Shown here piece after piece: positions 43,338 to 49,349 of a stretch of 64,000 nucleotides of DNA (within the stretch, counting starts at the first letter, position 1; the number at the start of each line of letters is the position of its first letter). Both the position numbers and the translations under genes were made by a program. Origin of the DNA: Cliona cf. orientalis (lineage: Eukaryota; Porifera; Demospongiae; Clionaida; Clionaidae); the NCBI GenBank assembly GCA_963930775.1, contig OZ005690.1, positions 808,001-872,000 on the forward strand. Direction: 5' to 3'. The notes below the pieces were generated by a model that saw nothing but the letters and a program-made list of their open reading frames with translations, was not told the DNA's origin and made no database searches.

Positions 43338-43433
43338 CTTACTGTTGGGTGCTTCTTCATATAAGCTTCCGTGTGATGATGTAATCTCTAATATACTAGT
43401 ATATAATGTATACATTCTATATATAATATAGAC

Positions 43434-46253
43434 AATGCCACCAATGACTATAGTGTCCCAAGTGACTGCAATGTCTCTAGTGACAGTAGTGTCCCCAGTG
43501 TCTCCAGTGACAGCAGTGTCTCTAGTGACAGCGGTGTCTCCAGTGTATCTAGTGACAGCAGTGTCCCTAGTGACAGCAGTGTCTCTAGTGATAGCAGTGT
43601 CCCCGGTGACGGCAGTGTCTCCAGTGACAGCAGTGTCTCCAGTGTTTCTCAGTGTCTCCAGTGGCAGCAGTGTCTCCAGTGATAGCAGTGTCTCTAGTGA
43701 CAGCAGTGTTTCTAGTGACAGCAGTGTCTCCAGTGTTTCAGTGACAGCAGTGTCTCTAGTGTTTCAGTGACAGCAGTGTCTCCCAGTGTCTCCAGTGACA
43801 ACAGTGTCTCTAGTGACAGCAGTGTCTCCAGTGTTTCTAGTGACAGCAGTGTCTCCAGTGTTCCCGGTGACGGCAGTATCTCCAGTGTTTCTAGTGACAG
43901 CAGTGTCTCCAGTCACAACAGTGTCTCTAGTGATAGCAGTGTCTCCAGTGTATCTAGTGACAGCAGTGTCCCTAGTGACAGCAGTGTCCCCGGTGACGGC
44001 AGTGTCTCCAGTGACAGCAGTGTCTCCAGTGTTTCTCAGTGTCTCCAGTGACAGCAGTGTCCCCAGTGATAGCAGTGTCTCTAGTGACAGCAGTGTCTCC
44101 AGTGTTTCTAGTGACAGCAGTGTCTCCAGTGTTTTAGTGACAGCAGTGTCTCCCAGTGTCTCCAGTGACAACAGTGTCTCTAGTGATAGCAGTGTCTCTA
44201 GTGACAGCAGTGTCTCCAGTGTTTCTAGTGACAGCAGTGTCTCCAGTGTCCCCGGTGACGGCAGTGTCTCCAGTGTTTCTAGTGACAGCAGTGTCTCCAG
44301 TGTATCTAGTGACAGCAGTGTCCCTAGTGACAGCAGTGTCTCTAGTGACAGCAGTGTCCCCGGTGACGGCAGTGTCTCCAGTGACAGCAGTGTCTCCAGT
44401 GTTTCTCAGTGTCTCCAGTGACAGCAGTGTCCCCAGTGATAGCAGTGTCTCTAGTGACAGCAGTGTCTCCAGTGTTTCTAGTGACAGCAGTGTCTCCAGT
44501 GTTTCAGTGACAGCAGTGTCTCCAGTGTTTCAGTCACAGCAGTGTCTCCCAGTGTCTCCAGTGACAACAGTGTCTCTAGTGACAGCAGTGTCTCCAGTGT
44601 TTCTAGTGACAGCAGTGTCTCCAGTGTCCCCGGTGATGGCAGTATCTCCAGTGTTTCTAGTGACAGCAGTGTCCCTAGTGACAGCAGTGTCTCTAGTGAC
44701 AGCAGTGTCCCCGGTGACGGCAGTGTCTCCAGTGACAGCAGTGTCTCCAGTGTTTCTCAGTGTCTCCAGTGATAGCAGTGTCTCTAGTGACAGCAGTGTC
44801 TCCAGTGTTTCTAGTGACAGCAGTGTCTCCAGTGTTTCAGTGACAGCAGTGTCTCCAGTGTTTCAGTGACAGCAGTGTCTCCCAGTGTCTCCAGTGACAA
44901 CAGTGTCTCTAGTGATAGCAGTGTCTCTAGTGACAGCAGTGTCTCCAGTGTCCCCGGTGACGGCAGTGTCTCCAGTGTTTCTAGTGACAGCAGTGTCTCC
45001 AGTGACAACAGTGTCTCTAGTGATAGCAGTGTCTCCAGTGTATCTAGTGACAGCAGTGTCCCTAGTGACAGCAGTGTCCCCGGTGACGGCAGTGTCTCCA
45101 GTGATAGCAGTGTCTCCAGTGTTTCTCAGTGTCTCCAGTGACAGCAGTGTCTCCAGTGATAGCAGTGTCTCTAGTGACAACAGTGTCTCCAGTGTTTCTA
45201 GTGACAGCAGTGTCTCCAGTGTTTCAGTGACAGCAGTGTCTCCACTGTTTCAGTGACAGCAGTGTCTCCAGTGACAACAGTGTCTCTAGTGATAGCAGTA
45301 TCTCTAGTGACTAGTGTCTCTAGTGATAGCAGTGTCTCCAGTGTTTCTAGTGACAGCAGTGTCTCCAGTGTCCCCGGTGACGGCAGTGTCTCCAGTGTTT
45401 CTAGTGACAGCAGTGTCTCCAGTGTTTCAGTGACAGCAGTGTCTCCAGTGACAACAGTGTCTCTAGTGATAGCAGTGTCTCTAGTGACTAGTGTCTCTAG
45501 TGATAGCAGTGTCTCCAGTGTTTCTAGTGACAGCAGTGTCTCCAGTGTCCCCGGTGACGGCAGTGTCTCCAGTGTTTCTAGTGACAGCAGTGTCTCCAGT
45601 GACAACAGTGTCTCTAGTGATAGCAGTGTCTCCAGTGTTTCTAGTGACAGCAGTGTCTCCAGTGTCCCCGGTGACGGGAGTGTCTCCAGTGTTTCTAGTG
45701 ACAGCAGTGTCCCTAGTGACAGCAGTGTCTCCTAGTGTCTCCAGTGACAACAGTGTCTCTGGTGTCTCTAGTGACAGCAGTGTCCCCAGTGATAACAATG
45801 TCTCCAGTGACAGCAGTGTCTCCAGTGATAGCAGTGTCTCCAATGTCTCTAGTGATAGCAGTGTCCCCAGTGACAGCAGTGTCTCCAGTGACAACAGCGT
45901 CCCTATTGAGAGCAATGTCCTAAGTGTCTCCAGTGAAAGCAGTGTTCCCAGTGTCTCCAGTATCTCTAGTGACAGCAGTGTCCCTAGTGATAGCAGTGTC
46001 CCCAGTGTCTCCAGTGACAGCAGTGTCCCCAGTGTCTCCAGTGATGGCAGTGTTCCCAATGACAGCAGTGTCTCCAGTGTCCCCAGTGTCTCCAGTGAAA
46101 GCAGTGTTCCCAGTGTCTCCAGTATCTCTAGTGACAGCAGTGTCCCTAGTGACAGCAGTCCAGTGACAGCAGTGGCAGCAGTGTCCCCAGTGTCTTCAGT
46201 AACAGTAGTGTTCCCAGTGATATGACAGTGTCTCAAATGATAGCAGTGTCCTA
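43434..46253. repeat. Minisatellite array, plus orientation (left arm)
   Basis: About 2.8 kb of an 18-bp unit AGTGACAGCAGTGTCTCC, itself two 9-bp words (AGTGACAGC, AGTGTCTCC), with variants such as AGTGTTTCT and CCCGGTGACGGC. Because 18 is divisible by 3 and stops are rare in the unit, several frames on both strands stay open for hundreds of codons (VSPVTA, SSDSSV, ETLLSL types). These are artefacts. Confidence 0.95.
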
Positions 46254-46259
46254 AGTGCT

Positions 46260-49255
46260 GCAGACACTGCTATCACCGGAGATACTACTGTCACTGGAAA
46301 CACTGGGTCACTGGAGACACTAGCTGCTGTCTCTGGAGACACTGGGGACACTGCTGTCACTGGAGACACTGTCATCACTGAAGACACTGGGGACACTACT
46401 GTCACTCGAGACACTGGGAGACACTAGGGACACTGCTGTCACTGGAGACACTGCTGTCATTGGGGACACTGCTGTCACTAGGAACACTACCGTCATTGGA
46501 AACACTGGGAACACTGGAGACACTGCCGTCACTGGGAACACTGCCATCACTGGAGACACTGGGGACACTGCTGTCACTGGAGACACTGCTGTCACTGGGG
46601 ACACTGCCGTCACTGGAGACACTGGGGACACTGCTGTCACTGGAGACACTGCTGTCACTGGGGACACTGCCATCACTAGAGACACTGTGGACACTGCTGT
46701 CACTGGAGACACTGGGGACACTGCTGTCTCTGGGGACACTGCTGTCACTGGAGACACTGCTGTCACTGCCATCACTAGAGACACTGTGGACACTACTGTC
46801 ACTGCTGTCACTGGAGACACTGCAGTCACTGGAGACACTGCTGTCACTGGAGACACTGCTATCACTGGGGATACTGTCGTTACTGGAAACACTGGTAGAC
46901 ACTGGGGACACTGCTGTCACTGAAGACACTGCTGTCACTGGGGACACTGCCGTCACTGGAGTCACTGGAAACACTGGTGTCACTGGAGACACTGCTGTCA
47001 CTGAGGACACTGCCATCACTGGAGACACTGGGGACACTGCTGTCACTGGAGACACTGCAGTCACTGGAGACACTGGGGACACTGGGGACACGTCTGTCAC
47101 TGGAGACACTGCTATCACTGGGGACACTGCCGTTACTGGAGACACCGGTAGACACTGGGGACACTGCTGTCACTGAAGACACTGCTGTCACTGGGGACAC
47201 TGCCGTCACTGGAGACACTGGAAACACTGGTGTCACTGGAGACACTGCTGTCACTGAGGACACTGCCATCACTGGAGACACTGGGGACACTGCTGTCACT
47301 GGAGACACTGCAGTCACTGGAGACACTGGGGACACTGGGGACACTTCTGTCACTGGAGACACTGCTATCACTGGGGACACTGCCGTTACTGGAGACACCG
47401 GTAGACACTGGGGATACTGCTGTCACTGAAGACACTGCTGTCACTGGGGACACTGCCGTCACTGGAGACACTGGAAACACTGGTGTCACTGGAGACACTG
47501 CTGTCACTGAGGACACTGCCATCACTGGAGACACTGGGGACACTGCTGTCACTGGAGACACTGCAGTCACTGGAGACACTGGGGACACTAGGGATACTGC
47601 TGTCACTGGAGACACTGCTATCACTGGGGTCACTGCCGTTACTGGAGACACTGGTACACACTGGGGACACTGCTGTCACTGAAGACACTGCTGTCACTGG
47701 GGACACTGCCGTCACTGGAGACACTGGAAACACTGGTGTCACTGGAGACACTGCTATCACTGAGGACACTGCCATCACTGGAGACACTGGGGACACTGCT
47801 GTCACTGGAGACACTGCAGTCACTGGAGACACTGCTTTCACTGGAGACACTGCTATCACTGGGGACACTGCTGTCACTTAGGAACACTGCCGTCACTGGA
47901 AACACTGGGGACACTGCTGTCACTGGAGACACTGCTGTCACTGGGGACAATGCCGTCACTGGAGACACTGGGGACACTGGAGACACTGCTGTCACTGGGA
48001 ACACTGCCATCACTGAAGACACTGGGGACACTGCTGTCACTGGAGACACTGCTGTCACTGGAGACACTGGGGACACTGGAGACACTGCTGTCACTGGGAA
48101 CACTGCCATCACTGGAGACACTGGGGACACTGCTGTCACTGGAGACACTGCAGTCACTGGAGACACTGGGGACACTGCTGTCACTGGAGACACTGCTATC
48201 ACTGGGGACATTGCCGTTACTGGAGACACCGGTAGACACTGGGGACACTGCTGTCACTGAAGACACTGCTGTCACTGGGGACACTGCCGTCACTGGATAC
48301 ACTGGAAACACTGGTGTCACTGGAGACACTGCTGTCACTGAGGACACTGCCATCACTGGAGATACTGGGGACACTGCTGTCACTGGAGACACTGCAGTCA
48401 CTGGAGACACTGGGGACACTAGGGACACTGCTGTCACTGGAGACACTGCTATCACTGGGGTCACTGCCGTTACTGGAGACACTGGTAGACACTGGGGACA
48501 CTGCTGTCACTGGGGACACTGCCGTCACTGGAGACACTGGAAACACTGGTGTCACTGGAGACACTGCTGTCACTGAGGACACTGCCATCACTGGAGACAC
48601 TGGGGACACTGCTGTCACTGGAGACACTGCAGTCACTGGAGACACTGGGGACACTGCTGTCACTGGAGACACTGCTATCACTGGGGACACTGCTGTCACT
48701 TAGGAACACTGCCGTCACTGGAAACACTGCTGTCACTGGAGACACTGCTGTCACTGGGGACACTGCCGTCACTGGAGACACTGGGGACACTGGAGACACT
48801 GCTGTCACTGGGAACACTGCCATCACTGGAGACACTGGGGACACTGCTGTCACTGGAGACACTGGGGACACTGGAGACACTGCTGTCACTGGGAACACTG
48901 CCGTCACTGGAGACACTGGGGACACTGCCGTCACTGGAGACACTGGGGACACTGCTGTTACTGGAGACACTGGGGACACTGGAGACACTGCTGTCACTGG
49001 GGACACTGAGAACACTGCCATCACTGGAGACACTGGGGACACTGCTGTCACTGGAGACACTGGGGACACTGGAGACACTGCTGTCACTGGGAACACTGCC
49101 ATCACTGGAGACACTGGGGACACTGCTGTCACTGGAGACACTGGGAACACTGCATGGAGACACTGCTGTCACTGGGGACACTGCCATCACTGGAGACACT
49201 GTAGACACTGCTATCACTGGAGACACTGCAGTCACTGGAGACACTGCTGCACACT
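46260..49255. repeat. Minisatellite array, inverted orientation (right arm)
   Basis: About 3.0 kb of the complement unit, GGAGACACTGCTGTCACT, with higher-order repetition: a block of about 253 bp recurs almost exactly at 46.9, 47.15, 47.4, 47.65 and 48.23-48.5 kb, which the left arm lacks in that form. The arms turn over near 46254-46259. Confidence 0.95.
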
Positions 49256-49349
49256 GCATGCACTGATTCACACATATACACCCTGGCACTATATGCACTA
49301 TATATTTAAGCATTACGTAATCACACGGAAGCTTATATGAAGAATCTCC

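Follow-up and report, generated by a model that had tools for sequence, protein, structure and literature searches.

The genome of the sponge Cliona cf. orientalis carries a family of DNA transposons in which two opposed minisatellite arms lie between terminal inverted repeats (TIRs). One member sits in the stretch analysed here (assembly GCA_963930775.1, contig OZ005690.1, positions 808,001–872,000; 64,000 nucleotides, hereafter the window), where it spans positions 43347–49350, with GGG at both ends. We consider it very probable (about 90%) that this is a young, non-autonomous foldback-type family moved by a DDE transposase made elsewhere. The foldback structural class is defined by inverted arms of short repeats inside the TIRs and by a short target duplication of about 9 bp. 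Both are found here: among the 29 two-ended copies, 28 have exact duplications, which are 8 bp long in 19 copies and 9 bp long in nine.

The foldback assignment in the initial annotation was to fall if no other copy with the same ends existed; it is supported by the many copies that were found. A 24-base TIR core occurred at 65 places in the same genome with up to three mismatches, compared with one place for the pattern read backwards. We read the window, 23 further pairs and 14 single-end places, which account for 63 of the 65 places, plus one more small copy. One single-end locus (L040) turned out to be two-ended, and a relaxed search (up to five mismatches) of the remaining 13 revealed second ends for three more, L043, L045 and L048. 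Copies range from 56 bp to 25.9 kb with a median of 5.6 kb, the two longest holding foreign inserts.

Twenty copies were classed as full-size (longer than 2.5 kb, both ends inside one sequence piece, ends close to the core), and each of them has one GGGTGC end (A) and one GGGAGA end (B). Excluding gaps, the mean identity of the ends is 97.6% for A (110 bases) and 96.7% for B (130 bases). Because the ends are about 97% identical, the family looks young.

Boundaries and layout of the element

The initial annotation described 38-bp inverted ends and a perfect 10-bp target duplication. The inverted ends are there, as is a 10-bp direct repeat at the flanks (CTTACTGTTG), but this repeat consists of an 8-bp duplication (TTACTGTT) extended by one chance base and by bases at the TIR termini. 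We dropped the 10-bp duplication in favour of 8 bp; the boundary at 43347–49350 yields the exact duplications given above. The two TIR ends are alike and unequal, agreeing at 35 of their first 39 bases as counted from the sequence. The minisatellite arms, which run in opposite directions and turn over near 46256 as described earlier, were recovered both in the sequence and by Tandem Repeats Finder, which reported unit sizes of 9, 18, 27, 36 and 253 bp and arrays at 43452–46250 (A arm) and as far as 49256 (B arm). The features are as follows.

43339–43346: target duplication, left copy (TTACTGTT); single occurrence in two paralogous exons
43347–43385, + strand: terminal inverted repeat, end A (GGGTGCTTCTTCATATAAGCTTCCGTGTGATGATGTAAT)
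43386–43451, + strand: A-side stretch from TIR to array
43452–46250, + strand: A arm, 9/18-bp minisatellite with CAGTG polarity
46220–46290: turn-over joining both arms; core in 14 of 20 full-size copies, inverted in one of these
46258–49256, − strand: B arm, the A-arm minisatellite in reverse complement, with CACTG polarity
49257–49311, − strand: B-side stretch from array to TIR
49312–49350, − strand: terminal inverted repeat, end B (GGGAGATTCTTCATATAAGCTTCCGTGTGATTACGTAAT on the − strand)
49351–49358: target duplication, right copy (TTACTGTT)
49353–49580, − strand: open frame, interrupted kinesin-14 (KIFC1-like) motor exon; possible GTAAGT splice donor after joining the left flank

The element interrupts a kinesin exon

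The right flank codes for a kinesin motor exon, for which the closest solved structure is KIFC1 (E 6.1e-22). Once the element and one TTACTGTT are removed, the frame continues to NSKT and then reaches the possible splice donor. Beyond the window's own two halves, the joined flanks have seven matches on contig C2 (763556–892645), five of which cross the insertion point; at C2:787091–787332 the match extends over bases 1–261 of 261 with 87% identity. Two paralogs within the window (at about 656–878 and 23859–24102) each show TTACTGTT once when aligned, which bears out the earlier claim that the empty site is still visible in the kinesin exon. The kinesin-14 exon is repeated within about 130 kb of C2 (the interval given above), and its copies in the window lie at 656–878, 23859–24102 and 49351–49573.

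Arms, turn-over and folding potential

The opposed polarity of the arms holds in the 20 full-size copies: with the turn set at the best fit, 9,490 of 9,502 CAGTG/CACTG words lie on the expected arm. Arm lengths vary between about 1.0 and 4.4 kb. The turn-over core is present in forward orientation in 13 full-size copies and inverted in one (L027); four have a second type and two have neither. That the turn-over is merely an assembly join of two unrelated arrays, a reservation raised in the initial annotation, was rejected as very improbable: arrays of this type are generally difficult to assemble, but one turn-over core recurs on different contigs, 18 of the 20 full-size copies have one of the two turn-over sequences, and exact duplications flank the element.

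The two arms of one copy are not duplicates of each other. Unique 40-mers in common with a copy's own reverse complement make up 0–1.3% of the length in 19 of the 20 full-size copies, and 7.5% in L027. For the arms in the window, the best ungapped 300-bp match averages 69%, compared with 34% against one shuffled arm. Modelled as RNA, the central 971 nt have a predicted folding energy of −720 kcal/mol (20 dinucleotide shuffles: mean −386, s.d. 10), a value that describes folding potential only.

Transposition and rearrangement

Two copies on different contigs, L018 (C4) and L024 (C10), have in common a nested insert of about 290–315 bp adjoining the turn-over. Their ancestor must already have held the insert, which shows that the interior moved along and that the element moves whole, arms included. 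The duplication is 9 bp long in L018 and 8 bp in L024; the stagger therefore varies inside one lineage. There is a difference of about 1.6 kb between the A arms of the two, which indicates that arms change fast. In L027, the centre (about 2180–3434) matches other copies in reverse and the outer parts match forward, as judged from exact 40-mers. Recombination between the opposed arms would seem to be the simplest cause.

We propose the following mechanism. A DDE transposase encoded elsewhere would recognise the TIRs (about 25–39 bp) and integrate the element at a cut staggered by 8 or 9 bp; TIRs, duplications and empty sites are all observed, and movement would be by cutting and pasting. The entire element, including its arms, is transposed, as the nested insert in two copies shows. 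Both the length and the sequence of the arms change more quickly than the ends do, presumably by slippage and unequal exchange, and opposed arms may recombine with each other, as the single inverted centre suggests.

Sister families with other arm units

With a looser TIR pattern (20 bases, three mismatches allowed), the search gave 153 places, and GGTTGCTTCTTCATRTAAGA ends among them occur in pairs. We read three loci from two further families. In the second family (L049 and L050), the opposed arms are built from units such as TTGTACTGG and GTAGTTGCC, and L050 has an exact 8-bp duplication. In the third (L051, with GGTTGATATTTCATATAAGA ends), opposed arms of GGTGCCCTT-like units meet at a turn-over near 820 and the element is flanked by an exact 8-bp duplication. 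Pairing of ends from coordinates, using the best 40 of 59 candidates for the second family and the best 40 of 74 for the third, gave at least 5 and at least 17 copies, respectively; pairs of 8.0 and 6.4 kb belong to the third. Thus, each of the three families read combines similar TIRs and an unchanged layout with arm units of its own: CAGTGTCTC in the window family, TTGTACTGG and GTAGTTGCC in L049, and GGTGCCCTT in L051. We do not claim that all families share a 9-bp unit; in L049, the arms show weak peaks at 3, 10, 19 and 29 bp.

The middle of L049 holds an inverted sequence that, by eye, is unlike the arms. The 4.1-kb interior of L050 gave no Pfam match in six frames. Two more end groups are known from coordinates only, in a search that gave 137 places (reversed control 14). 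Pairs with asymmetric GGGTGAT/GGCTAAT ends, again from coordinates only, are about 7–20 kb long (for example C2:8653107–8659932, C3:4953393–4965755, C7:7024040–7043585 and C9:2007819–2018699) and would be a good place to seek a transposase.

Candidate transposases

Profile matches of five transposase models (Merlin, MULE, P, KDZ and hAT) were compared with the TIR pairs by eye, from coordinates, a procedure that an intron-split or divergent transposase would escape. The initial annotation had suggested looking for a longer copy with a transposase; no match to these models was found inside a TIR pair, except in one nested P element. This weighs against a foldback family moved by an enzyme made elsewhere, and so do several results from the copies themselves. 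In 10 of the 13 single-end loci the second end was absent at up to five mismatches; the duplication of L048 matches at only 7 of 8 bases; L010 and L022 are the full-size copies with neither turn-over type; L049 has no exact duplication; and the looser TIR search returned 59 places for its reversed control against the 153 reported above.

The enzyme most likely belongs to the MULE or Merlin superfamily, to judge from the 8–9-bp duplications and the G-rich ends. A MULE transposase, which would make this a Mutator/Foldback family comparable to Tm1 of root-knot nematodes, is the leading candidate at a little under even odds. MULE duplications are 8–11 bp long (PMC6446971), a range that includes those seen here, and Tm1 resembles our elements in its asymmetric ends, the repeats in its inverted ends and its 8–10-bp duplications (PMC3169594). 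The genome contains 58 MULE matches, but none of these lies inside a TIR pair.

A Merlin (IS1016/IS1595-type) transposase is a serious though less favoured candidate. Merlin elements have TIRs ending in GG and 8-bp or 9-bp duplications (PMC8101967); the ends here are GGG or GG, with duplications of both lengths. The 67 DDE_Tnp_IS1595 matches in the genome include one within the window, yet none is inside a TIR pair. Neither of the two Merlin loci that were read resembles our family in its TIRs: the copy in the window has unlike 46-bp TIRs starting with GATCTCC, and the second locus (L052) showed no TIR. The Merlin-type element of the window occupies 28347–29931, with TIRs at 28347–28392 and 29886–29931 and an IS1595 domain at 28748–29128; as read by eye from the sequence, it interrupts a RING/TRAF-like gene.

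Duplications of hAT elements are exactly 8 bp long. Since 9 of the 28 exact duplications here are 9 bp, the mixture of lengths argues against hAT and fits MULE or Merlin; by eye, none of 148 hAT matches (among the best 150 of 230 candidates) lies in a TIR pair. The same comparison placed none of the 68 KDZ matches (PF18758) in a pair. The P superfamily gave 118 matches, and the sole one inside a pair (C3:5057177) belongs to a nested element carrying a TIR of its own.

The two longest copies were considered as autonomous partners, and 18 of their longer frames were scanned for domains. The 11.1-kb copy on C3 (L015–L016, 5054563–5065729) was rejected: what fills its interior is a P-like element, nested in an arm and bounded by a separate TIR (CAGGAGCTTATGAGCCGCCC). 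The 25.9-kb copy on C1 (L032–L034, 3774019–3799952) was not supported either, as the A arm is broken up by about 22 kb of interior sequence with mixed domains. This insert contains pieces of DDE_Tnp_1_7 (which we take to be of piggyBac type), the KDZ-associated CxC5 domain and zf-RVT, together with another short tandem repeat.

A second pair of opposed arrays in the window

Two arrays built from a 26-bp unit (CAGTAGCGGACGGCTGAATGCGGATG) lie opposed at 58363–58457 and 63865–64000, about 5.4 kb apart; their inner segments are inverted, and the second array runs past the window edge. Six-frame analysis of 58561–63503 gave no transposase domain and one chance-like Tafi-CsgC match. The pair may be another long-TIR element.

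Relation to known foldback elements

Foldback (FB) of Drosophila and TU of sea urchin have long inverted arms composed of short tandem repeats; their target duplications are short and their length varies. Our elements share all three traits; unlike in FB and TU, however, there is scarcely anything but the turn-over between the arms. The likeness is one of build. Elements of the foldback kind have been described in several animals and plants, including the sea urchin (PMC4079207).

Tm1 of Meloidogyne, described in its title as Mutator/Foldback, has asymmetric short terminal motifs, tandem repeats (of about 14 bp) in its inverted ends and, for 45 of the 53 elements that are complete, duplications of 8–10 bp (PMC3169594). 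It shares these traits with our family, along with small copies resembling miniature inverted-repeat transposable elements (MITEs). It differs in having copies that encode a putative transposase and a histone-hairpin group, whereas here the arms are about 1.0–4.4 kb long and no transposase was found with the five models. Tetris of Drosophila virilis is likewise a non-autonomous foldback element with 8–10-bp duplications whose partner enzyme was not found, but its units are about 220 bp long rather than 9/18 bp (PMC4079207). Galileo, of the P superfamily, has long, internally repetitive TIRs whose sides expand independently; in contrast to our elements, it has 7-bp duplications, a known transposase and, in one group, repeats of about 210 bp (PMC3688188, PMC3573991). 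The MULE-related Rehavkus has a 9-bp duplication, TIRs of 26–400 bp and a minisatellite before the 3′ TIR (PMC6446971). It has a single minisatellite and a PHD-finger transposase, however, and is listed only for arthropods and annelids in the source table; we rejected it as a match on account of the two opposed arrays found here.

No foldback element of sponges appeared among the papers listed in the literature searches, and a search on TU of sea urchin gave no paper. The build as such was already known. Apparently new, within the literature covered, are the different arm units under similar TIRs and the conserved turn-over as nearly the sole content between the arms.

Role of the arms

The layout is kept while the unit differs between families, which makes a structural role, by pairing in DNA or RNA, the likeliest function of the arms; we hold this with modest confidence. 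The main alternative, which we consider rather unlikely, is that the arms serve as an array of sites bound by the transposase, on the model of Galileo, whose repeats contain such sites (PMC3688188). Families with similar TIRs bear different arm units, which speaks against a single fixed site. Copy L019, of 129 bp, has no arms, yet is flanked by an exact 9-bp duplication; arms are thus not needed for insertion. A broader and equally doubtful proposal is that a foldback lineage in this one genome keeps its ends and opposed-arm layout and renews the minisatellite in each family, the fold being selected and the transposase being one that the five models did not recognise in the copies.

For the long repeat arms of foldback elements, a binding-site array, pairing and a mere by-product are the candidate explanations. 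Similar TIRs combined with different arm units make the choice between them testable by comparison, and the near-identical copies, the copy with the inverted centre and the small armless copy form a natural series. Such elements spread minisatellites through the genome and break genes, here the motor exon of a kinesin.

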